Positions 13,379-59,555 of a stretch of 64,000 nt of DNA are shown here, piece by piece (position 1 is the first letter of the stretch; each line of letters opens with the position of its first letter). The notes beneath the pieces were generated by a model that was given only the letters and a program-made list of their open reading frames with translations, did not search any database and had not been told where the DNA came from. The translations under genes were made by a program, and so were the position numbers. Origin of the DNA: Dactylorhiza incarnata (taxonomy: Eukaryota > Streptophyta > Magnoliopsida > Asparagales > Orchidaceae); the NCBI GenBank assembly GCA_033032865.1, contig JAWHQI010000258.1, positions 2,976,001 to 3,040,000 on the forward strand. The letters are read 5' to 3'.

Positions 13379-13453
<75 letters not shown>

Positions 13454-21903: not shown

Positions 21904-22825
21904 AAGTTGAATATTAAAGCAGATCCGACGGCTCTAAGAATCTGTAAATATTAAAGGGAGTTGGTATTAGCAGTCCGGAACGGGCTATTTGCAGTCCATC
22001 ACTATTCGTAGTCCATAAATTTTATTTGTAGTCCAAAATTATATTTGCACCCCACTCTCATCACAAATAAGCGAAACTCTTTGCTGATTTATTAAGCACT
22101 AGAAGTCTACAGAAACATCTTAAAGACTCTAAAACAATTTAAAAACCTAGCACGAAAATAAGTTAAATGGCATGCAAACCTTTCTCTAACCAGAAAACTG
22201 ACTATTTTTTTTTGGATTTTTGCTGGATAATTTACTTGTTTTTTTAAGAAGGTGAATCTAAGAGGGGGAAAAACGATGCAACCGATAGGACTACGGCTAG
22301 GGTTTAGGCAATGGGAGGAGAGAGATGGAGAGGTGGTTATTTGATGGGGTGCAATTAGCGAGAATTGGACTGCGAATATAATTAAGATTTTTACAATTTT
22401 TGGGATGCGAATAGCAAGAATTGGGCTGCACTCTCGTATTAAAAGGGAGGGAAATGCGAAATGATTCAAATTCCTGTGCCTCTCATTAAGTTTTGGTCTT
22501 AATTATTTAATTAGGAATAATGGATTATGCCGGCATAACTTTGACCAACTTATTAATTGTTGTTTTCTTTCCCAAACTTGTCTGTGGAAAATAAATACAT
22601 CACATCACCTGAGATTTTCTCTTCCGAGTGGTGTTAAAGAGACATCGGTGATAAAGACACATCAAAAAATTATTAGATATTTTTATCTTAAAGTTGGTGT
22701 GCTTATAGCATATTTAGATTTTTTTTTCTTAAAATTAATGTGCATATAACACTTTTGGGTGTGCCTTTAACACCTCTCGGCGGCTTTAAATGATCAAAAC
22801 TGGTTGTGGCGCCTCTCACAACAAA
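21904..22825. other. Upstream region of the receptor kinase
   Basis: AT-rich and non-coding. 21950-22450 repeats phrases such as GCAGTCC and its complement and may be an old inverted-repeat element, but the ends are unclear. A possible TATA box ATAAATAC lies at 22591-22598, ~235 bp before the kinase ATG. Confidence 0.35.
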
Positions 22826-25309
22826 ATGGCGTCTCTCATCACCCTTTTCCTCCTCCGGCTCTTCTTTCTCCGCCTCATCCTTCCGGTGACCGGCCAACAA
22901 GATCTGAGCAGCAGCTCCTCTTTCTCCGTCTCAGATCCACCTTGGCTCCCCTCGCAGAGCAATCGTTCGCTCCTTTCCCCAAACTCCCTCTTCTCCGCCG
23001 GCTTCCTCCCGTCCCTATCCAACTCCTCCGAATTCCACTTATCGGTCTGGGTTGAAGCCTCTGTTGATAAGACGCGCGTATGGGCTCTCGGCCCCGTGTC
23101 CTCCTCCTCTCGTCTGTTCATCTCCGCTGCCGGTGATCTCACCCTCGCCGGCCTATTGGGCGAAAACCTCTTCCCTTCCTCTGCTTCCGCCGCGCCCAAT
23201 ACCACTTTCCTCCGCATAAACGATGACGGATCTCTCACGTTCAGCAATTGGACCAGCTTCGCGTCCCATGGCGACACTCTCCTCCCCAACCAGCTTCTCC
23301 GGAACTCCTCCGTACTCTCCTCTGGGTACTATGGCTTCGATGGATCATCATTATTGTTTGATAACCAGTCGTTCTGGCGATTTTCGCCCGCCATCTCGTT
23401 GATCACCTCCGACGGTGCCCTAATGGCCGACCCAACGAACCAAGGAAACATGCTATATGCCAGTGATTATGGCCGAAGAGACACGCTTCGCCGGTTAACA
23501 CTCGACGCCGACGGAAATCTCCGTCTCTACAGCCTCTGGAGAAACTCCGACGGCCGTTGGAAGATCGTTTGGGTTGCGATGCCCGAGCTCTGTGCCATCC
23601 CAAACACTTGCGGCCCCTATTCGATCTGCGTTCCAAATGAAACCTACAATGCCATCAAATGCATCTGCGCCCCGGGTTTCCACGCCTCCGCCGACGGCCC
23701 CGAATGTGTGCGGAATAAGGACTACCTCCCGAGCAGCAAGTTTTTACAGCTAGACTACGTTCAATTCACGGCGAAGCAAGGCACAGTGAATCTTTCTCCG
23801 GTCGATTTAGATCGATGCCGATCCACCTGCCTTGGGAATTCCAGCTGCGTCGGCTTCAGCTACGCCATCGATGGACTGAAAAACTGCTACAATCATTACG
23901 GCGAGCTCGTGAATGGCCGCTGGTCCGCGACTTGGCCGATCACAACGTTCCTTCGCGTCGCGAGCTCCGAGACCGACGATTCCAATTTCACCGGATTGAC
24001 AGCGATGATCGATACGGTCTGCCCTGATCACACTAGCCTTCCATTTATGCCAAAGGAGGTGAAACCCACGGCAAGGAATATCGCCATCATCGCGACGATC
24101 TTATCGTTCGAGCTTATCCTCGGTGCGTTCTGCTTCTTAGCGTTCCTGCGCCGCTACACGAAATATGTAAACATGGCTCGAACATTAGGGCTCGAGTTCT
24201 TACCTGCCGGACGCCTGAAGCGGTTTTCCTATTCCGAGCTTCGGGAAGCGACCAAGGATTTCTCCAACATCCTTGGGAGCGGCGGCTTCGGCAAGGTCTA
24301 TTATGGGAAGCTCTCCGACGGCCGCGCAGTCGCCGTGAAGCAGCTGCGAAAGAGCTCCGGCGACACCGAGTTCTGGGCGGAGGTCAACATCGTCGCTCGG
24401 ATGCACCACCTCAATGTCGTCCGCATTTGGGGATTTTGCACGGAGAAGGAGCAGCGCTTCCTCGTATACGAGTACATCCCCAACGGTTCCCTTGACAATG
24501 TCCTCTTCCAGGATCCGGAGGAGTTCACCGGCGCCGAAGATGAAGACAGCAAGAGATATTCCAAGATCTCCGGCGGAATTCACCGGCCAGTTCTGGATCT
24601 CAGCATGCGGTATCGAATCGCTCTCGGAGTGGCGCGTGCGATCGCATATCTACACGAAGAATGCCTGGAATGGGTATTGCACTGTGACATCAAGCCGGAG
24701 AACATTCTCCTCGACGACAATTTCTGCCCTAAAGTCTCCGATTTCGGGCTATCGAAGCTGACGAGCAAGAAGGAGAGGGTATCCATGTCGAGCATAAGGG
24801 GAACGAGGGGATACATGGCGCCGGAGTGGGTTATGAATGAGGAGCCCATCACGGCGAAGGCCGACGTGTACAGCTTCGGCGTTGTGCTGCTGGAGCTGGT
24901 GGCCGGAATGCGAAACTGGGATTTCCGGCGGGATTCGGTGGAGAGCGTGGATTGGTACTATCCTAGGTGGGCGTACGATAAGGTGTTCGTAGAGAGGAGG
25001 ATGGAGGACGTATTGGATGCAAGAATTTTGGTGAGCTTTGATGATCGGGTGAAAGTGGAGACGGCGGAGAGGATGGTGAAGACGGCGATGTGGTGCTTGC
25101 AGGACCGGCCGGAGGCTCGGCCGTCGATGGGGAAGGTGACGAAGATGCTCGAGGGACTGGTGGAGCTTACTGAGCCGGCGAAGCCCACCATTTTTTACTT
25201 ATCCGAAGGAAATGTGGGCGCGAAAATTCTGCATCACTCCTTGGGTTTTAAGAGTGAGATGCAGGATCATCATTCTCCGTGTTCACTTGGCTCACTAGCA
25301 GGTCGGTAG
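22826..25309 (+). CDS. G-type (bulb) lectin S-receptor-like Ser/Thr kinase, single exon
   Basis: Intact plasma-membrane receptor kinase. I chose the ATG at 22826 because MASLITLFLL opens a signal peptide and sits in AAAATGGCG; an in-frame ATG at 22790 adds 12 residues (numbering here is from 22790, 839 aa). Order: signal peptide 13-36; bulb-lectin domain ~45-200 with many N-glycosylation sites; EGF-like cysteines 268-306; PAN-like cysteines 343-390; transmembrane helix ~430-453; kinase ~491-790. Kinase residues visible: GSGGFGKV 496-503, Lys517, catalytic HCD 631-633, DFG 651-653, APE 677-679. HCD instead of HRD makes it a non-RD kinase, a class linked to innate immunity. Intronless structure is usual for this subfamily (similar to Arabidopsis At1g34300). 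The ligand is unknown. Confidence 0.96.
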   Translation: MASLITLFLLRLFFLRLILPVTGQQDLSSSSSFSVSDPPWLPSQSNRSLLSPNSLFSAGFLPSLSNSSEFHLSVWVEASVDKTRVWALGPVSSSSRLFISAAGDLTLAGLLGENLFPSSASAAPNTTFLRINDDGSLTFSNWTSFASHGDTLLPNQLLRNSSVLSSGYYGFDGSSLLFDNQSFWRFSPAISLITSDGALMADPTNQGNMLYASDYGRRDTLRRLTLDADGNLRLYSLWRNSDGRWKIVWVAMPELCAIPNTCGPYSICVPNETYNAIKCICAPGFHASADGPECVRNKDYLPSSKFLQLDYVQFTAKQGTVNLSPVDLDRCRSTCLGNSSCVGFSYAIDGLKNCYNHYGELVNGRWSATWPITTFLRVASSETDDSNFTGLTAMIDTVCPDHTSLPFMPKEVKPTARNIAIIATILSFELILGAFCFLAFLRRYTKYVNMARTLGLEFLPAGRLKRFSYSELREATKDFSNILGSGGFGKVYYGKLSDGRAVAVKQLRKSSGDTEFWAEVNIVARMHHLNVVRIWGFCTEKEQRFLVYEYIPNGSLDNVLFQDPEEFTGAEDEDSKRYSKISGGIHRPVLDLSMRYRIALGVARAIAYLHEECLEWVLHCDIKPENILLDDNFCPKVSDFGLSKLTSKKERVSMSSIRGTRGYMAPEWVMNEEPITAKADVYSFGVVLLELVAGMRNWDFRRDSVESVDWYYPRWAYDKVFVERRMEDVLDARILVSFDDRVKVETAERMVKTAMWCLQDRPEARPSMGKVTKMLEGLVELTEPAKPTIFYLSEGNVGAKILHHSLGFKSEMQDHHSPCSLGSLAGR

Positions 25310-25616: not shown

Positions 25617-27356
25617 TGTTGCGGGTCGCTTAGGGCTCTTGGTAGACCGGTTTACTTGAACCACCTTAGCTCGGGAGCGAACCAAGCGCGCAAACAGTCA
25701 ATTTGAGATTTGTTGATTACACTGAGACTTTTTAGCGTGGAAAACCCGGAAAGGGTAAAAAACCACGTGGTAGGAGCTGTGCCGACCAAACTTCCACTAT
25801 CTTCTGGGGGGTTACAATTTGAGACATAGAAGTCGAGCGCGACAGGCCGCTGCTCGTTACAAAATAGAGAGAAAGATAGAGAAAGAGAGAATTCCGAAGG
25901 TGACAGACCACCTACAGAAAAACTAAGTCATTTCTCCTTCTGAGAAAGGAGAACAAAAGTGAGAACGTTCTGGAGAACAAAAGTGAGCACGCTGAGACGC
26001 CTTTCGGGAAAAAGGAAATCTTCGAGTCCGAAGGAGAATTTCACGAAAGTCTGCAAGAAGCACTCCCGGGTCCAGAAGGCAAGGTCCCTTGAAATGAAGC
26101 CCTGGGGCTCCTTTTATAGCTTTGGCCGGGGGTAGCCCGGTAATTTCGCCGTTGTAACCGCCGTAACCACCTTGCGGACGAATCATATTTTTCGGTTCAG
26201 AGCACACGGATCGCCATTTTTCATAATTGACCATCTTGCCCCTCGGGCAGTTCGGGCAGTTTTGTTGGAGGCGAAAAAGGCGACAAACTGTTCCTGAAAT
26301 CTGAGAAACTGGAAAGACAAAAAGTGAGCTTGCTAGAAAGACAAAATGTGAGAAGTCAGAAAAGACAAAAAGTGAGCTGAGTGCGCTCAGAAGCGTTCTG
26401 AGCGCGCAACGAACGGAGAAGCAATCTAGGCAACTGGGGAAGCGATCTGAGAGCGCAACGATCGGAGAAAACGTCCTGGTTGCTTTGTGAGGCGTTCTGA
26501 GCATGCAACGAACACGGAAGCGCTCTGAACGCGCTTAGAGGCGTTCTGAGCGTGTGACGAACACAGAATTGTTCGGGGCGGAATCTGAAACCTGAAGGGC
26601 GTACGGCGAGCCTGAAGAGGATACGTCTAAACTCCACCATGGGGGAGGTGGCTCGACCGCACCCCAAGAGGGATGCGGCCTGGGCCGTACCCCAAGAGGG
26701 ATGCGGCCTGGGCCGTACCCCAAGAGGGATGCGGCCTGGGCCGTACCCCAAGAGGGATGCGGCCTGGGCCGTACCCCAAGAGGGATGCGGCCTGGCCGCA
26801 CCCTAAGAGGGGGTGCGGCCTGGCTACAGCCCGCACCCCAAGAGGGGGTGCGGCCTGGCCGCACCCCAAGGGGGGTGCGGGCTGGCCGCACCCCAAGGGG
26901 GGGTGCGGGCTGGCCGCACCCCAAGGGGGGTGCGGGCTGGCCGCACCCCAAGAGTGGGGTGCGGCCTCGCCGCACCCCAAGGGGGGTGCGGGCTGGCCGC
27001 ACCCCAAGAGAGGTGCGGGCTGGCCGCACCCCAAAAGGGGGGTGCGGCCTGGCCGCACACCCAAGAGGGGTGTGGTTAGGCCGCACCCCTCAAGGGAGGC
27101 TCGACGCTACCGCGCGGTAGCGCCAGGCGGTTGCGTTGCGCTTGCTGCGGGCGCTACCGCGCGCGGTCCTGCTTTGCGCGGTGATGTAGTGTTTGGATGC
27201 GGCGATCGCACGCGGTCTTGTACGGGTGGTTGATGGCGGAGATAGTGGGCTTGCCCACTCTCCCACTTCCCTCTTTATCATCTTAGTGGGCCTTTGGGAT
27301 AACCACCTCTTTGACTTGTATATAAATGAATAAGAATCTTGTATGAGTACGCATCA
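25617..27356 (-). repeat. TR-GAG 3' LTR (left copy, 1740 bp)
   Basis: Homologous to 29773-31556 over its whole length. It contains a hairpin-rich 28-bp minisatellite at 26640-27095 and ends GTATGAGTACGCATCA. Confidence 0.92.
26640..27095. repeat. 28-bp GC-rich hairpin minisatellite in the left TR-GAG LTR
   Basis: About 16 units built on CCCCAAGAGGGATGCGGCCT followed by GGGCCGTA, grading to the right into GTGCGGCCTGGCCGCAC units. Each later unit is a near-perfect palindrome able to fold as a hairpin. Long open frames here in several registers come from the absence of stop triplets, not from a gene. Confidence 0.9.
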
Positions 27357-29772: not shown

Positions 29773-31556
29773 TGTTGCGGGTCGCTTAGGGCTCTTGGTA
29801 GACCGGTTTACTTGAACCACCTTAGCTCGGGAGCGAACCAAGCGCGCAAACAGTCAATTTGAGATTCGTTGATTACACTGGGACTTTTTAGCGTGGAAAA
29901 CCCGAAAAGGGTAAAAAACCACGTGGCCGGAGCTGTGCCGACCAAACTTCCACTATCTTCTGGGGGTTACAATTTGAGACTTAGAAGTGGAGCGCGACAG
30001 GCCGCTGCTCGTTACAAAACAGAGAGAAAGATAGAGAAAGAGAGAATTCCGAAGGTGACAGACCACCTCCAGAAAAACTAAGTCATTTCTTCTTCTGAGA
30101 AAGGTGGAGAACAAAAGTGAGAACGTCCTGTAGAACAAAAGTGAGCACGTTGAGTCGCCTTTCGGAAAAAAGGAAATCTTCGAGTCTGAAGGAGAATTCC
30201 GCGAAAGTCTGCAAGAAGCTCTCCCGGGTCCAGAAGGCATGGTCCCTTGAAATGAAGCCCTGTGGCTCCTTTTATAGCTTTGGCCGGGGGTAGCCCGGTA
30301 ATTTCGCCGTTGTAACCACCGTAACCACCTTGCGGACGAATCATATTTTCCGGTTTAGAGCACACGGATCGCCATTTTTCGTAATTGACCATCTTGCCCC
30401 TCGGGCAGTTCGGGCAGTCCGGACAGTTTTGTTGGAGGCGAAAAAGGCGACAAGCTGTTCCTGAAATCTGAGAAACTGGAAAGACAAAAAGTGAGCTTGC
30501 TAGAAAGACAAAATGTGAGAAGTCAGAAAAGACAAAAAGTGAGCTGAGTGCGCTCAGAAGCGTTCTGAGCGCGCAACGAACGGAGAAGCAATCTAGGCAA
30601 TTAGGGAAGAGATCTGAGAGCGCAACGATCGGAGAAAACGTCCTGGTTGCTTTGTGAGGCGTTCTGAGCATGCAACGAACACGGAAGCCCTCCGGACGCG
30701 CTTAGAGGCGTTCTGAGCGCGTGACGAACATAGAAGTGTTCGGGGCGGAATCTGAAACCTGAAGGGCGCACGGCGAGCCTGAAGAGGATACGTCTGAACC
30801 CCACCATGGGGGAGGTGGCTCGACCGCACCCCAAAGGGGGGTGTGCCTGGGCCGTACCCCAAGAGGGATGCGGCCTGGGCCGTACCCCAAGAGGGATGCG
30901 GCCTGGGCCGTACCCCAAGAGGGATGCGGCCTGGCCGCACCCTAAGAGGGGGTGCGGCCTGGTTGCAGCCCGCACCCCAAGAAGGGGGTGCGGCCTGGAC
31001 GCACCCCAAGAGGGGTGCGGGCTGGCCGCACCCCAACAGGCGGTGCGGGCTGGCCGCACCCCAAGCGAGGTGCGGCCTGGCAGCACCCCAAGGGAGGTGC
31101 TGCCTGGCCGCACCCCAAGGGGGGTACGGCCTATCCGCACCCCAAGCGGGGTGCGGCCTATCCGCACCCCAAGCGGGGTGCGGGCTGGCCGCACCCCAAG
31201 GGGGGTGCGGGCTGGCCGCACCCCAAGGGGGGTGCGGGCTGGCCGCACCCCAAGAGGGGGGTGCGGCGTGGCCGCACCCCAAGAGGGGTGCGGTTAGGCC
31301 GCACCCCTCAAGGGAGGCTCGACGCTACCGCGCGGTAGCGCCGCGCTTGCCGCGGGCGCTACCGCGCGCGGTCCTGCTTTGCGCGGTGATGTAGTGTTCG
31401 GATGCGGCGATCGCACGCGGTTCGGGCGGTTGGTGGCGGAGATAGTGAGCTTGCCCACTCTCCCACTTTCCTCTTATCATCTTAGTGGGCCTTTGGAATA
31501 ACCACCTCCTTGACTTGTATATAAATGAATGAGAATCTTGTATGAGTACGCATTCA
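29773..31556 (-). repeat. TR-GAG 5' LTR (right copy, 1784 bp)
   Basis: Counterpart of 25617-27356, with scattered substitutions and a minisatellite of slightly different length. The two LTRs are clearly diverged, so the insertion is older than the copia element at 43301. Confidence 0.92.
30810..31310. repeat. 28-bp GC-rich hairpin minisatellite in the right TR-GAG LTR
   Basis: Same unit family as 26640-27095, but with a different order of variants and a different number of GATGCGGCCTGGGCCGT units (three versus five), showing independent change of the arrays after insertion. Confidence 0.9.
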
Positions 31557-36239: not shown

Positions 36240-36485
36240 AGCGATCCCCGCAACCGCACCCCCTTGGGGTGCGGCCAAGCCGCACCCCACGTGGGGTGCA
36301 GCCATGGCCGCGCCCCCTTTGGGGTGCGGCCAAGCCGCACCCCATGTGGGGTGCGGCCAAGCCGCGCCCCCTTTGGGGTGCGGCCAAGCCGCACCCCGCG
36401 AGGGGGGGTGCGGCCGGGCCGCACCCCCTCGGGGTCTGGCCGCGCCACACCCCGCACAGGGTCCGGCCGCACCGCACCCCCTCGG
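36240..36485. repeat. GTGCGGC-CAA-GCCGCAC hairpin array
   Basis: Six to eight units of ~30-60 bp, each with the palindrome GGGGTGCGGC CAAGCCGCAC CCC, separated by short variable spacers (CATGTG, CTTT, GCGAG). It is the same hairpin theme as in the TR-GAG LTRs but with different unit length and spacers. Confidence 0.85.
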
Positions 36486-37445: not shown

Positions 37446-37909
37446 CTGGTTCTCCAGAATTCTCAGAAGGGAAAAAGACTTAGTTTTTCCGAGAGGTGGC
37501 TTGTCACCCTCGGAGCTCTCTCTCTCTCCTGTTGTAACGGGTAGCGGCCTGTCGCGCTCGAGTTCCAACCATCAAGTTGTAACCACCAGAAGATAGTGAT
37601 GTTTGGTCGGCACAGCCCCGGCCGCGTGGTTTTTACCCTTTCCGGGTTTTCCACATTAAAAAGTCCCAGTGTACTCAGCAAATCTCGAATTGACTGTTCG
37701 CGCGCTTAGTTCGCTCACGAGCTAAGGTGGTTCAATTGGACCGGTCTACCAAGAGCCCTAAGTGTTCCGCAACAATACTAATGAGATAAGAATGAAGAAA
37801 TGTGAATGAAGCCTCACTAGCAATGATGAGTAATAACGCTTTGGACAAGATAAGTGTATAACTCATAATTCGTTAAGATCAGGAATGCATAAGGAAAAGA
37901 CCTCGGCGG

Positions 37910-44590: not shown

Positions 44591-47500
44591 ATGGAAGGTG
44601 GTTTTGCAAGAGGTCTTGGTATTGAGATGCTTACATCGACTAACTTCAAGAAGTGGAAGTCGTGTATGCAGAGCTATCTTCTGGGTGAGGACCTCTGGGA
44701 GGTGGTAGGAGGAGATGAAACAGAAGAGGTAAAGGCTGTAGAAGGAGGTGATAATGGACCGGCCGTGAGGGCATGGAGGAAGACCAACGCCAAGGCCGAG
44801 TTCACCTTGAAGCGTGCCATTTCACCTGATCTCTTTGATCACATCTTGGGGTGTGGATCAGCTGCTGAGATCTGGAGAGCCCTGGATGGGCTATTTAACA
44901 AAAAGAATATAGCAAGGCTACAGTTCTTAGAGAATGAGCTGGCGAGGTCAGCTCAAGGTGATCTTTCTATCTCGAACTTTTTTTTGAAGATGAAGAATCT
45001 CTGCGCTGAGATATCAGCACTGGATCCTGATGAGCCAATTTCTGAGGCGAAGCTGAAGAGGCACATCATCCGCGGCTTGCGGAAGGAATATTTGGCCTTT
45101 GTGACGTCGGTACAGGGATGGGCAAATCAGCCGTCTCTGCTAGAGCTGGAGAATCTGCTAGCTTCGCAGGAAAGTCTGACAAGGCAGATGGCGGGAGTGT
45201 CTGTGACTGGGGGAGACGGCGAGGTGCTCTTCTCAGGGAAGAAGAAGAAGTGGGAGAAGAAGAAAAAGATCGCGGGAGGCTATGGGCCTTCAACTTCTGG
45301 GCAGCAGGAAAGGGGGTATGCTCCCAAGGCTGACGGGAAGAAGAAGGGGGAAGGTCCGAGATGCTTCAAGTGCGGGAAGGTTGGGCACTTCAAGAAGGAA
45401 TGCCCAGTTGTCACTCAATCGGGGCATGTTGCTGGAAAGGTGGAAGTGGAGGCCAGGCACATTGATGGAGGATGGGGAGGAGCCTTCTCGGCTTCGGTTG
45501 AAGCCTCGGCTACTATCAACTATCAAGAGGACTGGATCGTGGACTCGGGGTGTGGTCATCACCTCACCGGAGATGAGTCGAAGCTTTCATCAGCACAACC
45601 CTATACAGGTAACAATGCTATCATCACCGCTGATAATACTGTGCATCCAGTCGAGAAGGTGGGGGTTGTTTCTTTGGGCAGTGATAGAGGGCCACTTACC
45701 TTGAAGAGTGTCTATCATGTGCCCGGGATGAAGAAAAACCTCTTCTCAGTAACCAACGCTGTTGACGCTGGGTATCACGTTCTGTTCGGCCCAACAGAAG
45801 TGAAATTTCTACGAAATGTAGAGGCCGTGAAGGCGGAGGTTGTTCATGTTGGGAGACGGGCAAAGGACTTGTTCGTTTTGTCGACAAGTTCCTACGTCGA
45901 CAAGATGAAGACGAATGATGGTGCCGTGATATGGCATGAGAGGTTGGGGCATGTAGGGATGGACAAGCTGAAAGCTATGGCGGTGAGAGGTCTGGTCAAG
46001 GGCCTGCCAAGTCTATCTTCCTACGGAGAAGGTCATGTTTGCGCAGGATGTCAGTTCGGCAAGTCTCATCGACTACCGTTTGACAAGTCGCAGACAAGGA
46101 GTAGTGTGCCGTTGGAGTGCATCCACGGTGACTTGATGGGACCTACTGCTACCCCAAGCCTCGGAGGCAGCAGGTATATGCTGGTGCTGATCGATGATTA
46201 CACCAGATATGTCTGGGTATATTTCCTGAAGGAGAAGGCGGAAGCGTTTGCCAAGTTTGTGGAGTTCAAGGAGCTCGTGGAAGGTCGGCTGAATCTGCGG
46301 ATCAAGAAGCTGAGGACGGACAACGGAGGAGAGTTCACCTCTGCTGAGTTCTCCAGTTTTTGCAGGAAGGCAGGCATCCGGAGGGAGCTTACTTGTGCAC
46401 ATACTCCACAGCAGAACGGTGTTGCAGAGCGGAAGATCCGTCATCTGACGGAGACTTGCAAGTGTTGGCTGCATGCCAAGAGTATCCCAAAGTCCTTCTG
46501 GGCGGAGGGAATGTCTTGTGCTGCTTACGTCATCAACAGGATGCCTCTGAGCCCCATCAACATGTTGACCCCGCATGAGATGATGTTCAAGGAGAAGCCA
46601 AGCGTGGCACACCTTCGGGTGTTCGGTTCCACCTGTTACGTGCACATCCCTGATGCTCTTCGGACAAAGCTAGAAGCGAAGGCTAGGAAGCTAGTCTTTG
46701 TGGGATACGATGAGAGGAAGAAAGGGTGGAAGTGCATGGACCCGGAGACGCGGAGATTTGTTGTATCTCGCGACGTCGCGTTCGATGAGGTGACATCTTA
46801 CAGGGGGTCCTCTGGAGTGGAGTTACCAGAGAGCAGGGTGGAGGAGCCGGAGCAAGCTGTGGAAAATCTTCAGGTGGAGCTACCTGTGTCACCAGGTGGT
46901 CCATCGCCTTCTAGTTCTGAGACGGGAGCTTCTGGTTCAGGGAGCAGGGGGAGCAATGCTCCTAGCACGTCTGGAAGGGGAGCTAGGGAAGAAGCAGCTG
47001 AAGATGATGCGGTTCAGGGGAAGGAGCTGAGGAGATCGAAGCGAGCGATCATCGCCCCTGATCGCTATACAGGAGGAAACACCGTGAGCTTTGTCTCATG
47101 TTTCTTCGCTGGTCCCTTAGATGAGAGGGAACCGTCGAGCTTTGAGAAGGCCAGAGGCGTGAAGGAGTGGGATGTTGCAATGCAAGAAGAGATGTCAGCT
47201 CTTGAGAAGAATGAGACCTGGTCTCTTGTGCCCAAGCCTAAGGGCATCGCTCCTGTGACATGCAAGTGGGTCTACAAGCTTAAGAAGAAAGCTGACGGCA
47301 GTATCGAGCGTTACAAAGCTCGCCTTGTAGCTCGGGGGTTCTCGCAGCAATACGGTGAAGACTACGAGGAGACTTTCAGTCCGGTGGCAAAAATGACTTC
47401 AGTTCGTTTTATTATTGCCTTGGCGGCGTTCAGTGGATGGAAGATTTGGCAGCTCGACGTCAAGAACGCCTTCTTGTACGGAGAGATTGACAAGGATATC

Positions 47501-48676
47501 TTCATGGTCCAGCCTCCAGGCTTTGTGTCTGAAGATTTTCCGGAGCATGTCTGCAAGCTGAAGAAGGCCCTGTATGGGTTGAAGCAAGCGCCGAGGGCGT
47601 GGTACGGGAAGATCGCAGAATATCTCCTATTCTGTGGATTTGTTGCTTCAGACTCAGACTCAAGCTTGTTCGTCAAGAAGAGCGGGGAGCTTCAAGTCAT
47701 CGTGCTGCTTTACGTCGACGATATGATCGTGACGGGGAACTCGAAGGAGGAAGTAGCACAGCTTCGGGCCGAGCTGGCTATCAGGTTCGAGATGAAGGAT
47801 CTTGGTGAGCTTCACCATTTTCTTGGACTTGAGGTGCAGAGGAAGGAAGGTGGAGTGCTGGTGACCCAAGCCGGATATGCGGAGCGGATCGTGGAGCGGT
47901 TCGGCATGAAGGAAGGGAAGTGCACTTCCACACCTCTGGAGAAGGCTATGAAGCTTCGGAAGGATGAGGGAAGGATCATGCAAGATCCGTTGGTGTTCCG
48001 AGCTCTGGTTGGGAGCTTAATCTATCTGACGATCACGAGGCCGGACATTGCATATGCAGTGGGCAGGGTGAGTCGGTTTATGGCGGAACCACGAGTACCT
48101 CATCTGCTAGCGGCCAAGAACATTCTGAAGTATGTCAAGGCGACCTCGGACATGGGTCTCTTATACAAGAAGGATGCGGGCTTCGAGGTGCATGGATACA
48201 TGGATGCCGATTACGGGGGAGATTCGGATGATCGAAAGTCGACATCTGGATTCGTCTTCATGGCGGGCCCTACGGCTATATCATGGTGCAGCAAGAAGCA
48301 GGATTCCGTGTCAGTCTCTACTACGGAAGCGGAATACAAGGCTTCGGCCTTGGCAGCTCAGGAAGCCATCTGGCTTAGGAGGTTGGTAGGAGACGTCCAC
48401 AAGGAGGTTCGGGAGCCGACTCTGCTACGCGGTGACAACGAGAGTGCTCTCAAACTGGTAACCAATCCAGTTTGTCACGCGAGGACCAAGCATATTGAGA
48501 TCGAGCATCACTTCATACGGGAGAAGGTGCTGGAGGGATCTCTTTCGGTCGAGCATGTGCGGAGTGCGGACAATGTCGCAGACATCTTCACAAAGGCGCT
48601 GGCAAAGGGGCCGTTCACACGGCTAAGGGAGCTACTTGGGCTAGTTTCCACTTCCCACTTCAAGGGGGAGTGTTGA
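44591..48676 (+). CDS. Copia C Gag-Pol polyprotein
   Basis: 1361 codons without a break. Domains in order: UBN2-type gag 1-200; zinc knuckle C258-x2-C261-x4-H266-x4-C271; aspartic protease with D318 in IVDSG; integrase with an HHCC zinc segment from HERLGHVG, and core motifs LIDDYTRYVW, RTDNGGEF and PQQNGVAERK; Ser/Gly-rich linker ~760-830; reverse transcriptase with VLLYVDDMIV; RNase H with STTEAEYKA. The product makes particles, copies the RNA and integrates the cDNA. Gag and Pol are in one frame with no visible shift site. The last codons KGE are encoded by the polypurine tract, and the final Cys and stop by the LTR terminus TGTTGA, so the gene overlaps the 3' LTR by six bases. Confidence 0.97.
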   Translation: MEGGFARGLGIEMLTSTNFKKWKSCMQSYLLGEDLWEVVGGDETEEVKAVEGGDNGPAVRAWRKTNAKAEFTLKRAISPDLFDHILGCGSAAEIWRALDGLFNKKNIARLQFLENELARSAQGDLSISNFFLKMKNLCAEISALDPDEPISEAKLKRHIIRGLRKEYLAFVTSVQGWANQPSLLELENLLASQESLTRQMAGVSVTGGDGEVLFSGKKKKWEKKKKIAGGYGPSTSGQQERGYAPKADGKKKGEGPRCFKCGKVGHFKKECPVVTQSGHVAGKVEVEARHIDGGWGGAFSASVEASATINYQEDWIVDSGCGHHLTGDESKLSSAQPYTGNNAIITADNTVHPVEKVGVVSLGSDRGPLTLKSVYHVPGMKKNLFSVTNAVDAGYHVLFGPTEVKFLRNVEAVKAEVVHVGRRAKDLFVLSTSSYVDKMKTNDGAVIWHERLGHVGMDKLKAMAVRGLVKGLPSLSSYGEGHVCAGCQFGKSHRLPFDKSQTRSSVPLECIHGDLMGPTATPSLGGSRYMLVLIDDYTRYVWVYFLKEKAEAFAKFVEFKELVEGRLNLRIKKLRTDNGGEFTSAEFSSFCRKAGIRRELTCAHTPQQNGVAERKIRHLTETCKCWLHAKSIPKSFWAEGMSCAAYVINRMPLSPINMLTPHEMMFKEKPSVAHLRVFGSTCYVHIPDALRTKLEAKARKLVFVGYDERKKGWKCMDPETRRFVVSRDVAFDEVTSYRGSSGVELPESRVEEPEQAVENLQVELPVSPGGPSPSSSETGASGSGSRGSNAPSTSGRGAREEAAEDDAVQGKELRRSKRAIIAPDRYTGGNTVSFVSCFFAGPLDEREPSSFEKARGVKEWDVAMQEEMSALEKNETWSLVPKPKGIAPVTCKWVYKLKKKADGSIERYKARLVARGFSQQYGEDYEETFSPVAKMTSVRFIIALAAFSGWKIWQLDVKNAFLYGEIDKDIFMVQPPGFVSEDFPEHVCKLKKALYGLKQAPRAWYGKIAEYLLFCGFVASDSDSSLFVKKSGELQVIVLLYVDDMIVTGNSKEEVAQLRAELAIRFEMKDLGELHHFLGLEVQRKEGGVLVTQAGYAERIVERFGMKEGKCTSTPLEKAMKLRKDEGRIMQDPLVFRALVGSLIYLTITRPDIAYAVGRVSRFMAEPRVPHLLAAKNILKYVKATSDMGLLYKKDAGFEVHGYMDADYGGDSDDRKSTSGFVFMAGPTAISWCSKKQDSVSVSTTEAEYKASALAAQEAIWLRRLVGDVHKEVREPTLLRGDNESALKLVTNPVCHARTKHIEIEHHFIREKVLEGSLSVEHVRSADNVADIFTKALAKGPFTRLRELLGLVSTSHFKGEC
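48662..48670 (+). other. Polypurine tract of copia C
   Basis: AAGGGGGAG immediately before the 3' LTR, the primer for plus-strand DNA synthesis. It is also translated as part of the polyprotein C-terminus. Confidence 0.9.
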
Positions 48677-53130: not shown

Positions 53131-53626
53131 AGACGTGTTAAAGATGTAATCTGCACCGCACGACAAAATAATCAATCACAACCGTCCACTTCATTTAAAA
53201 AGACAAAGCAGGCAAAATTAATGAAAACCAGAATACAATGTATCCAGTTAACTGGATCATCCTTCCCTAGATGCGTTTCATATTCTGCAATTAAAAGGCA
53301 AACTGTTAGTATAAATAACCATATATTGAACAAATGATGTATGAATAAATGAAATCTATTGTCATGTCTGATTATAAAAACTTATACTGTAACTCTGTGC
53401 TAAAAAAACAACATATGGGTAAACTTTATCGATTCATAAACATTAGCCATAATTATGCACCTTTAATCATTCTTTATTTATCATGTAACAAATACCTACA
53501 TCAAATACTCATGCATTCTATGAATTGTCGCACATAACAAATGAAAACAATAACAGCATGAACGTGATAGCGCACTTGTAAACAACACAATAGATCCACG
53601 ATAAAACGTGTATTAGTCGTGTGTTC
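53131..53626. other. AT-rich DNA between copia B and the cytochrome b561 gene
   Basis: Holds the copia B 3' untranslated region, perhaps an LTR remnant, and the 3' flank of the cytochrome gene. No separate feature is recognisable. Confidence 0.5.
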
Positions 53627-53878
53627 TCATGGAAGTACAACGGATAAAACCACGGTTATGCCAAAGAGGATAATGGCTATTCCCGTGAAGTTAAGCACAA
53701 GCGCTTCATTGCCTCGATGGAGTCCCAGGAACCAGAATCTCCTTATGATCCCTGTGGCCGCGCTTCCTACGGCCAAGATGAATATTACCAGGCCGAAGAA
53801 GGCGTGCCACGGCTTCAGATTTGCTCTCATCATCATCGTCGTCCCGGGGAACACGAAGAAGATGAAACCAATCAGGAA
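53627..53878 (-). CDS. Cytochrome b561 (ascorbate ferrireductase), last exon
   Basis: Minus-strand exon of 84 codons with acceptor GACAG|TTC at 53879 and stop at 53627. It encodes FLIGFIFFVFPGTTMMMRA, then LKPWHAFFGLVIFILAVGSA and a final hydrophobic helix. The His in PWHAFFG is one of the four conserved haem ligands of cytochrome b561. The last two membrane helices and the loop between them match the family, and the C-terminus VVLSVVLP is where such proteins normally stop. These proteins move electrons from ascorbate across vacuolar or plasma membranes to Fe(III)-chelates or monodehydroascorbate. Phase 0 splicing fits the exon at 57548. Confidence 0.88.
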   Translation of the reverse strand, partial: FLIGFIFFVFPGTTMMMRANLKPWHAFFGLVIFILAVGSAATGIIRRFWFLGLHRGNEALVLNFTGIAIILFGITVVLSVVLP

Positions 53879-54829
53879 CTGTCAAGTTCAAAAGCATATA
53901 ATTATCATTATCTAGTACTCGTTATATATATTTATAACATGACTTTGCATAATTTTATATGTAATATTGATTATGACCTTGAATTTAGAACTAAGGGCCG
54001 CAAACTAGCTTTAATAAATATTGGAACATAATAAAATGAATGCATTGAACCCCAAAATCAATTGTTTATAGATCCCATGACACGATTTATTTTAAGTGCA
54101 TGAATAAACCTATCATGAGTCGAGGTGTAGAGCTCCATCCTTAGCATACGTCTTTGGCGTGCGTTTTTTTTTAGGGTAAAGTACCTATGACATTCATATA
54201 TTACAGAGGAAAGATATTTGATCCCCTGTAAGTTTCAAAAGCACAGTTATAATCCCCTAATTTTTCATAACTTGGACATTTGACCCCCTACAAATTCTTT
54301 ATACAGAGTGTCAAATGTTTCGGTTATGAAAAATTAGCGATTACCGCAGTTCTCTTAAAATTTACATGATGTCAAATGTCTTTTCTCTATAATATAAGAG
54401 TTTCACCAATACTTTACCATTTTTTATTAAGTGGTGTGGGAGTGAGTTGATCTGCTCTATTTCTATCTTTATGATTAATTCGTATAATCGTGATTTATTG
54501 GATTGTTGATGATCTGGTCTATTTCTGCCAATCTAAATTAGGCCTGAATAAGCCTACTTGATGAGCAATGGGACTGCGACGGTATCCGACCATCAATCGA
54601 TGACTCCGACAAGTTTAACTTAGTTTCATGTGATATACTCTTTATGTAGACCACAAATGTTTATTTTTTAATTTAATGTAATTGACTTGATTAACTGATC
54701 ATTTTATATCATCAATTCATTTCAAACATGACACCTATGCCTGTGTACATTTGTAGGCTCCTGATTGGTCATTCAACTTGCATTCAAACACTTCCTGTCT
54801 AATAATTTTAGCTTTTTGAAGGGCTTAAA
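53879..54829. other. Cytochrome b561 intron 2, 3' part
   Basis: AT-rich intronic DNA with no coding signal. Possible weak inverted repeats around GACATTTGACCCC near 54280 suggest an old MITE, but the ends are unclear. Confidence 0.5.
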
Positions 54830-55398
54830 TTACTTGTATATATACCTGGACAGAGTAAAGACACATATAGTACCTATATATATCTTGACAGAGTAAAGAC
54901 ACATATAGTACATATATATATCTGGACAGAGTAAAGACACATATAGTACCTATATATACCTGGATAGAGTAAAGACACATATAGTACCTATATATACCTG
55001 GACAGAGTAAAGACACATATAGTACCTATATATACCTGGACAGAGTAAAGACACATATAGTACCTATATATATCTTGACAGAGTAAAGACACATATAGTA
55101 CCTATATATACCTGGACAGAGTAAAGACACATATAGTACCTATATATATCTGGACAGAGTAAAGACACATATAGTACCTATATATACCTGGACAGAGTAA
55201 AGACACATATAGTACTATACACAAATCTGGACAGAGGAAAGACACATATAATACCTATATACATACCTGGACAGAGTAAAGACAGATATAGTGCTTATAT
55301 ACATACCTGGGCAGAGTAAAGAAACATATAGTACCGCAATAAAGATACATATATATAGTACCTCAATACATACCTGGACAGAGTAAAGACAAATATAA
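54830..55398 (-). repeat. Minisatellite derived from the exon 2/intron 2 splice junction, distal block
   Basis: About 15 units of 38-40 bp. On the + strand each contains GACAGAGTAAAGACACATAT followed by AGTACCTATATATACCTG. The reverse complement reads ATGTGTCTTTACTCTGTCCAG|GTATATATAGG, codons MCLYSVQ then a GT donor. The true exon end at 57548 reads MCLYSLQ with CAG|GTATTT. About nine units keep a GTAT donor; others have GATA in its place. Confidence 0.92.
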
Positions 55399-55402
55399 TA
55401 CC

Positions 55403-56623
55403 TGTTGCGGGTCGCTCAACGTTCTTTCAGACCGGGCGAATCGAACCGTCTTAGCCCGAGAGTGAACCGAGCGTGCAAGCAGTCACAGAGAGAACGAACA
55501 GGTGGCAAGAGGACGTTTTTACCGTGGAAAACCCGAAAAGGGTGAAAAATCACGTGGTCGGATCGGCGCCGACCAAATTTCACTAAGTTGTGGAGTGTTA
55601 CAAGTAATGATGCGAGAATCGGGAGCGACAGGCCGCTCCCGTTACAATTGCAGTTGAATGAAGGTCTCTAAGTGTGACAGGTCACCTCTCAGAAAAACTA
55701 AGTACTTTTCTCGGCCAGGAAGTCTTTAAAGTCCGCAGGAGATCTTCAAGCGACGATGGGGGTCTTCAAGCGACGAAGGAGGTCTTCGAAGGTTGAAGGA
55801 GATCTTCGGGTTCCGTAGGAGATCTTCGAATGCTGAAGGAGATCTTCGGGTTCCGAAGGAGATCTTCGAATGCTGAAGGAGATCTTCGGGTTCCGAAGGA
55901 GATCTTCGGGTTCCGAAGGAGATCTTCGAATGTTGAAGGAGATCTTCGAATGCTGAAGAAGATCTTCGAGGGAATTCCAGAGAGCTCTCTCCAGTCCAGA
56001 AAAACCAAGTCCCTTGAAATGAAGCCCTGAGGTTCCTTTTATAGCTTTTGAGGGTGGTTAGGGTGGTTATGGTGGTTAGGACGGCTATCCGCACACCATA
56101 ACCAATTTATGTGTTATATGCACATTTATCATGAATATGGCTATGCGCACACTAGTTTGTATAGTTTTTAGGATGATATGTATTCATATGACGGATATGG
56201 TTGCGCGCACACCATAACCATATTATTTGCTAGACGCAGACCGGATGCCCACTCATCATGAATATGGCTATGCGCACACCAATTTATATAGTTTGGTGAT
56301 GATATGTATTCATATGATGGATATGGTTACGCGCACACCATAACCATATTATTTGCTAGATGCAGACCGGATGCCCACTCATCATGAATTATTATTTGCT
56401 AGATGCAGACCGGATGCCGCGCGGCCTTGCGGCCGCGCGTGGTGCTGTGCGTGGCTTCGTGCGGTGGTTGCGGTGGTTGCGGCGGTTGCGGTGGTTGCGG
56501 CGGTTGCGGTTGTGGGCGGTTTTCTCCTCTTTCTTGCCCATGCCTCCACCATCTTAATGGGGAGTGGGGTTTTTTGGCTAATCGCAACCTGTGTTTCTCT
56601 ACATAATAAATGATAACCCATCA
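55403..56623 (-). mobile_element. Solo LTR inserted in the splice-junction minisatellite
   Basis: Starts TGTTGCGGGTCGCTCAACG and ends AACCCATCA, with perfect ATACC duplications at 55398-55402 and 56624-56628. It is related to the TR-GAG LTR by its termini and the GAAAACCCGAAAAGGGT block. It holds a minisatellite of GGAGATCTTCGGGTTCCGAA units (55735-55975) and GGTTGCGGT repeats (56455-56515). Confidence 0.9.
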
Positions 56624-56628
56624 ATACC

Positions 56629-56898
56629 TATCTAATATACATACCTGGACAGAATAAAGATACATATAGTACCTCAATACATACCTGGACAGAGTAAAGA
56701 CAAATATAATTCCTATATACATACCTGGACAGAGTAAAGACACATATAATACCTATATACATACTTGGACAGAGTAAAGACACATATAGTACCTATACAC
56801 ATATCTGGACAAAGTAAAGACACATACAATAAATATATATCTGGACAAAGTAAAGACACATATAGTACCTATACACATACCCGAAGAGAGTAAAAATA
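56629..56898 (-). repeat. Splice-junction minisatellite, proximal block
   Basis: Seven further units of ~40 bp. The last, at about 56880-56896, reads CCCGAAGAGAGTAAA and shares GAAGAGAGTAAA with the authentic exon rather than the GGACAGAGTAAA of the other units. Similarity to the exon therefore rises toward the exon. Confidence 0.92.
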
Positions 56899-57522
56899 GG
56901 CGTGCAAATTTGGCCCGGGCCCGGTTGCCCGGCCCGGGTCTGAGTCCGATTAAGCCCGGGTCTGGTTAAGCCCGGGCCAGGCCTAAGGGGGCTCACCAGG
57001 CCCCCTTATTTGGCCAGGGCCCGGCCTGGTGCCCGGCCCGGACCAGGCCCAGGCCTGCCTGGGCCCAAAAGCCTTTTTTGCTGGGCGCTGCCACTGCCCA
57101 TCATTAAATTGCTGAGCGTGGCAACGCCCTAGCAAATAATGCTGATATCAGCATTAAATGCTGATATCAGCATTATATATCAGCATTAAATGCTGATATC
57201 AGCATTATATATCAGCATTAAATGCTGATATCAGCATTATATATCAGCATTAAATGCTGATATATAATGCTGATATCAGCATTAAAATGCTGATTATCAG
57301 CATTAATCAGCATTATCAGCATTTTAATAATGCTGATAATCAGCATTTTGGGCCTGCCTGGGCCTAGTTTGGTAGGCTCAGGCAAGTCCTTTTATTTTGA
57401 AGAGGCCCGGGTCCGGCTTGGGCCCAATTTAAGCAGGGCTCGGCCTAAGCCTGGCAGCAAAAAAGCCCGGGCCCAGGGGGCCCGAGCCCAGCTTGGGCCC
57501 GCCGGGCCTTTTTTTGCACGCC
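56899..57522. mobile_element. GC-terminal inverted-repeat element (hAT-like, non-autonomous)
   Basis: The left end GGCGTGCAAATTTGGCCCGG is the inverted copy of the right end (reverse-complemented GGCGTGCAAAAAAAGGCCCG). The flanks are rich in CCCGGGCCC. The centre (57125-57345) is a chain of GCTGATATCAGC palindromes separated by ATTAAAT or ATTATAT. No transposase. The possible 8-bp duplications (TAAAAATA/ACAACAAT) are imperfect. Confidence 0.7.
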
Positions 57523-57547
57523 ACAACAATAGTACCTATATAAATAC

Positions 57548-57750
57548 CTGAAGAGAGTAAAGACACATAGTGCCAAATCCAATCCAAGAGTGCAGGCTAT
57601 CAAAGTTAGGCAGAGTCCCATCCTTCTTAATAACTGTGAAGATGGCATACAGCCCAAGAACACCCAGCACCACACCCATCAAGTTCAGCAGCACGTGCGC
57701 AGTTTTCTTCCACTTTCTTCTCCCGGGAACCATCTTCAACGCCATTATAG
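57548..57750 (-). CDS. Cytochrome b561, middle exon
   Basis: 203-bp exon on the minus strand, acceptor GGATTAG|CT at 57751 and donor CAG|GTATTT at 57547. It encodes IMALKMVPGRRKWKKTAHVL, a membrane helix, then FDSLHSWIGFGTMCLYSLQ. The His in KKTAH and the His in SLHSW are two of the four haem ligands of the b561 fold. The exon begins in phase 1 (it needs one base of an Ala codon from the exon before) and ends in phase 0, matching 53878. Its last seven codons and donor are the template of the intronic minisatellite. Confidence 0.9.
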
Positions 57751-58774
57751 CTAATCCACCACAATAAGAATTAATTAAGAACAAAATAATAATTAATACT
57801 ACTCCTCTTCACCCTACACTATCAAGTTATTAATATTTTATATTCGTTTGAAAGAGATTAATCTAAAAATGTTATGGCAGCTGTGGTTTGGTGCTTATTT
57901 AAGGGGAAACATTTCTACACGCTCATCGCATAATGAGTATGGTGCGTGGAAGTTTTTTTCCTCTCAAAATTACAGTTCTAAATTACGATATGAAAATTAT
58001 AGTCAGTTTTTTTCGATTATTTTTTATTCAAAAATTATAATTCAAAATTATAATTGTAAATCCAAATGTATTTTTATGACTGCTTTTTATTCCAAAATAT
58101 AAATATATAAGTACTTACAAATATCATAATTTATTTTGAAAAAATAACAACTAACCAAATAAATGTAATTTTGAGCCTTAAAAAACATATATAAAATTTT
58201 CCCCTAATTAAGTGCTCGTGTGCGGAGATTTTGTCCGTCCGATTTGCTATCGGATCGCCAGCAAAATTTGAGATTAAAAAAGCAAAAAATGATATTCGGT
58301 CGGATTTTAAAAGACATGAAGTATGGACATATTTTTTTTAAATAATTATTTTATGAATAAATAGGATGCTAAAATAATTGTAAAAATACCTTAAGGAATA
58401 TTCTATAATTTATTTTATAAAAAATAAAAAACAATTTAATAAAAAACATTTTTTTTCTACGGGGACATAATAAAAAACATTTTTTCTAATTTATATCTGA
58501 CATTTAAATATTTACTCCCTCAAACAAAATGCAGCTGGATTATGAATTATTCAATACTACTTTTTAATTTTAAAAAAAATAATTAATTAAGCAAAGCTTG
58601 CCTTGGCCAACGCAGATTATAGGGCCAAACAGCATCAGCACATGGTGCGCCTGTGGAATTGGCAGCGTTATTGGAGACCATAATCAAATATTAATAATCC
58701 TAATCAATTACTCTAATTACCGAGAACTTTAAAATGGAAATCAGAAATCAGAAATCAGAAAAATCTGCACTGAC
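57751..58774. other. Cytochrome b561 intron 1, AT-rich
   Basis: No coding signal. I searched the minus strand for the expected HPxxMxxG helix segment (CAY CCN in an open context) and did not find it. Confidence 0.6.
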
Positions 58775-58963
58775 GTTTAGCAGGCGGGCCAAATCATTGG
58801 ATTGCAAGGAAAAGCCTTCCCGGAAATGTGAGATCCAGATCAGCATAAGAGCTATGGCCGCTGCGGCGAACAGCTGTGCCACCCAAATTACCGGCAGCGC
58901 AGTTATCCTGTACCTCCCACCTTTCTTCCCTGATTCCGCCGCCGCCGCCGCCGCCGCCGCCAT
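58775..58963 (-). CDS. Cytochrome b561, first exon, 3' end lost
   Basis: ATG at 58963, then a run of eight Ala from a GCC repeat, KKGGRYRITALPVIWVAQLF, the first membrane helix, and ISHFREGFSLQSNDLARLLN. This is the standard N-terminus of plant cytochrome b561 up to the Asn that precedes Val-His-Pro. The family continues with about 49 bp encoding VHPxxMxxGxxxxxGE, which includes the fourth haem His. Here the frame instead runs into SADFSDF and a stop in an ATTTCTG repeat. GTCAGT follows AAC and could act as a donor, but joining it in phase 0 to the phase-1 middle exon would shift the frame. The gene is therefore probably inactive. Confidence 0.82.
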
Positions 58964-59555
58964 GGAAAAAGCTCCGCCCGAAAAGCGAATGAGTAAGAAA
59001 GAGAGAGGGAGAGAGAGGATTGCTGCTCTTTCAGGTCTTAGTGCAGCAGTAATTCAGCGAAAATATATAATTAAGAGGAATGCTTCATTAACATACGTTA
59101 AATTATATATATTAAAAATTTCATGACTTTTTCCATTCCAAATTATGAAAAAATTCTGTCTTTTACGGCATTGCCGGAGTATAAATGGTCTCTGTGCAAA
59201 AGATATCCTTGCAGGGCCAGGCGACCCGCCCAGACCAATGAATAGATGTAGAAATGAGTGGAAAATATCAAAATACTCTGTTAAAAAAAATTGTGCGTGT
59301 AAAAACCAAAGATTATCGAGCAGGATACACTATCACATCGTTGCTTTCCTCAAGCATGATTTTTTACATGTGATTGAACGAAAATACGGTCATATTTCAT
59401 TAAGATCTTATTATGTCTGTATTTTCGCACAATTTTCACCGTTGGATCGCGGCAAGATGCTCTGTGGTCGAATCTGGCCTCAACATTTTGTTGGGCTAGC
59501 TAGAGAGCACGCAAGTCTGATCAGAGCACCTGCAAATTAGTTTGAGCGGTGACAC
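58964..59555. other. Upstream of cytochrome b561
   Basis: Putative 5' untranslated and promoter region for the minus-strand gene, then unassigned DNA. A plus-strand open frame at 59145-59540 has no recognisable domain. Confidence 0.4.

Follow-up and report, generated by a model that had tools for sequence, protein, structure and literature searches.

Background

Minisatellites that span an exon-intron boundary are a described class of sequence, to which the plant case presented here adds. The human gene IFI6 (6-16, G1P3), whose transcript is interferon-induced, reportedly carries a minisatellite with multiple splice donors, an arrangement said to have been described by Turri et al. in 1995. 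According to a passage in PMC4526556, two downstream repeat units of IFI6 are used as donors and several mRNA species result; passages in PMC3618361, PMC2572611 and PMC2915984 cite the same report. In amphioxus, tandem minisatellite-like repeats lying across exon-intron boundaries are called 'mirages' and, in passages of PMC3087553 and PMC3902484, are recorded for Adh3, globin, troponin C and PGBD5, the second of these papers adding PGBD5 and citing troponin C. PMC4974935 shows for the potato RdRp gene that a tandem duplication across an intron-exon boundary can create an intron, and recursive splice sites, or ratchet points, are described in part of PMC8758631 for introns of more than about 10 kb. 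An intronic minisatellite is reported from an earthworm (PMC12783039), and passages of that paper do not describe boundary copies. No plant array of the boundary-spanning type was recognised in the open-licence literature searched, a body of work outside which most subscription journals lie.

The DNA analysed in this study (hereafter the window, meaning the whole 64-kb stretch) contains a well-formed exon-intron boundary minisatellite of an orchid, most likely neutral and mostly bypassed. An earlier, sequence-only reading of the window had regarded such arrays as an undescribed class, a claim that fails because the amphioxus mirages and the human IFI6 minisatellite were already described.

Host gene and structure of the array

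The array lies within a gene whose 230-aa product contains a Cytochrom_B561 domain (PF03188, E 6e-36, Pfam match of the joined product), matches the ascorbate ferrireductase PDB 4o6y over residues 22-230, and has its best match, 91% over 88% of the query, in the protein P0001 of Platanthera guangdongensis. Four coding exons were identified (Table 1), and the boundary that the sequence-only reading had labelled exon 2/intron 2 is in fact that of exon 3 and intron 3. Intron 2 (within 58650-57751) is of the GC-AG type with the donor AAG/GCAAGC, as judged from the reading frame and the homologues. No Rfam family was found at gathering score in 53500-59100. Elsewhere in the window, a receptor kinase gene (22790-25309) also has its best match in P. 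guangdongensis (P0033, 91%), and synteny and orthology with P0001 and P0033 are suggested for the two orchid genes. The window thus belongs to an orchid close to Platanthera but of another species than P. guangdongensis. A pure run of 72 G at 13381-13452 is possibly a sequencing or assembly matter.

Table 1. Positions in the window of the cytochrome b561 gene, its repeat array and the inserted elements.
Feature	Position	Strand	Remarks
Exon 1 (coding part)	58963-58775	-	Reading frame and PF03188 match of joined product
Exon 2	58650-58602	-	Joined frame VGQAIMALK agrees with GQAIMAFK of homologues
Exon 3 (exon 2 of the earlier reading)	57750-57548	-	Final 27 bases supply the exonic share of the repeat unit
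E0, source segment of repeat	57574-57537	-	38 bp: 27 exonic and 11 intronic bases; donor CAG/GTATTT
Intron 3	57547-53879	-	3669 bp; host intron of the array
GC-rich 624-bp element	57522-56899	-	10-bp terminal inverted repeats GGCGTGCAAA; between exon 3 and U01
Proximal block, U01-U07	56898-56624	-	Mostly 40-bp type GTATGTATATA with GTATGT
1221-bp element read as solo LTR	56623-55403	-	TG...CA; 5-bp target-site repeat GGTAT on both sides; inside array
Distal block, U08-U21 and one truncated unit	55402-54837	-	U12-U21 are a near-identical 38-bp type
Exon 4 (coding part with stop)	53878-53627	-	Supplies the true acceptor for intron 3; contains invariant His172

The true end of exon 3, ATGTGTCTTTACTCTCTTCAG (57568-57548, minus strand), is followed by the intron start GTATTTATATAGGTACT, and intron 3 contains 21 copies of this boundary, roughly 38-40 bp each, as well as a further unit that is truncated. 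Unit spacing is 36-40 bp inside the blocks and 67 between U08 and U09, where the truncated unit sits, while U01 is partial (29 bp), being cut by an insert. The whole unit length, not merely a motif, aligns to the boundary: 32 of 40 aligned columns are identical between E0 and the unit consensus, and two of the eight differing columns come from an AT that the units have in addition. Aligned locally to the array, the 38-bp boundary segment scored 51 at best, far above the maximum of 34 in 2000 dinucleotide shuffles of the segment. The exon-end copies noticed in the sequence-only reading are confirmed. The 27 exonic bases alone scored 34 (shuffle maximum 30), and no coding 27-mer from beyond the final 72 bases of exon 3 scored above 16. 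Since the exon encodes a conserved stretch of the protein family, it is the likely source of the units. A fuzzy scan for copies (18 bases, at most 6 substitutions, both strands of the window) returned 38 matches on the minus strand, of which 22 correspond to the exon with its 21 units and the other 16 have 5-6 mismatches, together with 19 on the plus strand, each with 4-6 mismatches; no second array was found among these matches on either strand.

Of the 21 units, AG is present in 19, GT in 14 and both in 12; the count for GT agrees with the earlier estimate that roughly two thirds of the units keep a donor. The seven units lacking GT have AT at the donor position. Loss of GT (7/21) did not differ significantly from loss of AG (2/21; Fisher 0.13, for units that are not independent). 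The most variable unit column is +5 (10 G, 11 A), which is confounded with the loss of two bases that distinguishes the 38-bp type from the 40-bp type, and the second most variable is the donor G (14 G, 7 A). Such variability of the donor G is not the pattern expected from selection for working donors, and selection keeping the donors was rejected.

History of the array and the exon end

The array probably arose by tandem duplication of a 38-bp segment, with 27 bases from the end of exon 3 and 11 from the start of intron 3. Within the intron the copies would then have multiplied through slippage or unequal exchange, like any ordinary minisatellite, and two mobile elements later split the array. 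Slippage between two GGYACTAT direct repeats that already lay 38 bp from each other was considered as the origin and rejected, as the first copy begins with the intronic GGTACTAT, which is thus a product of the duplication, not its cause.

Both the solo LTR and the 624-bp element sit within the array, indicating that they arrived after it. No clear target-site duplication was seen around the 624-bp element, within which lies an array of AATGCTGATATCAGCATT palindromes (57135-57347). Three arrays of a similar GC-rich self-complementary unit, CCGCACCCC...GGGGTGCGG, occur elsewhere in the window (26657-27089, 30824-31307 and 36254-36482). The solo-LTR-like element has internal tandem repeats of its own, and partial relatives of it lie at 37471-37747, 29773-30017 and 25617-25862; in addition, a 1361-aa open frame on the plus strand (44591-48676) reads, by eye, like a copia-type retrotransposon polyprotein.

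Mean divergence is 0.039 among U12-U21 and 0.144 among U02-U11, a difference reached in 1 of 5000 block-label shuffles. The distal block has been homogenised more recently and the proximal block has diverged, which fits minisatellite turnover; U21, the last unit, is identical to the distal consensus, and U01 is exon-like. U06 and U08, which along with U07 and the truncated unit lie on either side of the solo LTR, are near-identical (0.025), a likeness around the LTR that fits a local two-unit duplication before its insertion.

The sequence-only reading had further proposed that the array grew outward from the exon. As that reading had noted, the nearest unit, U01, shares exon-specific bases, CTCTCTTC, with the exon; it is the only unit to do so, and the two group together in a quick tree (drawn without support values). 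Otherwise no gradient of similarity away from the exon was found among the 21 units, gapped or ungapped. Over columns free of gaps, similarity to the exon is higher in the distal than in the proximal units (Spearman -0.49; the 21 units are not independent of one another). When gaps are counted, the two are about equal, with matches to the exon at 33 of 40 columns for the best proximal units and at 32 of 40 for the most frequent distal type. That part of the earlier reading was not supported.

The exon end itself differs from most of its copies at one residue. Exon 3 ends in SLQ in the window, U02-U21 read mostly SVQ in the exon frame, and P. guangdongensis P0001 also has SVQ. Among the 15 homologues (of 32) aligned at this residue, V is found only in P0001, with I in nine and L in five. 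There are several potential explanations for this single residue: an SVQ exon may have seeded the array, with the exon and U01 later changing together; alternatively, the array may have rewritten the exon in Platanthera; or the residue may have changed in parallel. Should sequence indeed pass between exon and array, the repeat would be editing a neighbouring codon.

Predicted use of the copied splice sites

Donor strength was estimated as the computed duplex energy, in kcal/mol, of each donor with the U1 5' end. Predicted pairing is -7.3 for the true donor, -9.5 for U01, -10.2 for U05-U10 and -7.4 for six distal units, the remaining units being weaker (-4.0 to -0.2). Pairing is thus predicted to be at least as good as that of the true donor in 13 of the 21 units, and better by more than 2 kcal/mol in seven, so that a silent bypass of the copies is not self-evident.

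Reading past the true donor meets an in-frame TAG at bases 10-12 of intron 3, and all 21 alternative donors are computed to give the same 150-aa truncated product ending ...LYSLQVFI. Because this stop is shared by all decoy products, frame differences among the units are irrelevant for a simple donor shift, and the earlier expectation that different units would give different reading frames was not borne out. Protein diversity through reading frames was rejected on the same count. The truncated product lacks exon 4 and its invariant His172, a residue with a haem role, and misuse of the decoys would thus cost function.

The array is probably a plant 'mirage', with copied donors that are largely bypassed and a first donor that makes the functional mRNA. 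Under this interpretation the decoy donors would be mostly silent, the first donor, that of the true exon end, would be the one used for the functional product, and the array would have no selected function.

It is also possible, although unlikely, that the decoys are partly used, with the CAG/GTATGT of U05-U10 competing with the weaker CAG/GTATTT of the true donor, so that a premature stop and nonsense-mediated decay follow, expression is lowered by the array and copy number tunes the gene. The stronger predicted pairing of U01 and U05-U10 would favour such competition, as would the premature stop that follows from every one of the units, and downstream repeat units are reported as donors in the passage on human IFI6 (PMC4526556). 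However, the decoys lie at least 667 bp downstream of the true donor and behind two inserted elements, the donor transcribed first has the advantage, and GT is gone from seven of the 21 units; moreover, passages of PMC3087553 and PMC3902484 report that splicing is undisturbed by the amphioxus mirages.

Another set of explanations concerns the acceptor side of the units. In 12 of the 21 units GT comes directly after CAG and a tract rich in pyrimidines (12-13 of 15), while the gene's own three acceptors have only 8-9 pyrimidines in 15. A scan of both strands of the window for this layout (at least 12 of 15 pyrimidines, then CAG/GTR) gave 13 sites, which are the exon 3 end and the 12 units; the threshold was picked after the units had been seen. 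Since exon 3 itself ends in a pyrimidine-rich CAG/GT, amplification of that end made twelve intact recursive-type sites. A proposal that these sites step intron 3 out without a trace while the array also exchanges sequence with the exon, rewriting adjacent codons, is very improbable. Recursive (ratchet) use as such, in which exon 3 is joined to a unit's CAG and the regenerated GT is spliced onward until intron 3 has been removed stepwise and a clean mRNA remains, is likewise regarded as very improbable. A unit taken at both edges would keep the protein intact, as in 12 of 121 acceptor/donor pairs (all of zero length); one further pair adds 114 nt in frame, but 108 break the protein. In addition, intron 3 measures 3.7 kb, compared with the introns of more than about 10 kb for which recursive splicing is described in part of PMC8758631, and such a layout is what copying would give when the codons at the exon end happen to be rich in pyrimidines. 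The idea that the minisatellite is a dispersed repeat from elsewhere, its resemblance to the exon end being secondary, is very improbable as well, given that the match takes in both the donor and the coding bases just before it in a conserved exon, and that the window holds no second copy. The preferred interpretation is still that of a mirage whose copied donors would be largely bypassed.

Comparison with described systems

The orchid array resembles the human IFI6 minisatellite in offering repeated donor sites at a splice junction. In IFI6, however, the donors used reportedly yield several mRNA species, whereas every alternative donor of the orchid array would lead to one and the same 150-aa truncation, so that distinct coding isoforms are predicted for none of the 21. 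Like the tandem duplication in potato RdRp, the orchid case involves a plant gene in which splice signals were copied along with exonic and intronic parts; in potato, a single duplication gives rise to a new intron, while in the orchid about 21 copies lie in an intron that was already old, without implying the gain of a new one. The 12 units in which AG directly precedes GU behind a strong 3' splice site tract are similar to ratchet points, from which they differ in the short intron (3669 bp), the clustering of the units and their origin as a copied exon end, and they are seen as a layout in DNA.

The closest resemblance is to the amphioxus mirages. As in these, the orchid units span the exon-intron boundary, and many, but not all, keep AG/GT. 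Mirages have homogenised inner units and distinct boundary units; in the orchid U12-U21 are homogenised and U01 is exon-like, while the last unit equals the distal consensus. Mirages are also characterised by length instability between haplotypes or tissues, and the orchid array is known from one sequence. Unlike the amphioxus cases, the array is found in a plant, has 21 units and has received mobile elements. Mirages would thereby be extended to a flowering plant, with a layered history that can be dated (the array first and the two mobile elements later), and the locus offers a natural test of how, with about 14 near-identical donors in a row, the spliceosome settles on the first even though later ones appear equal or better.
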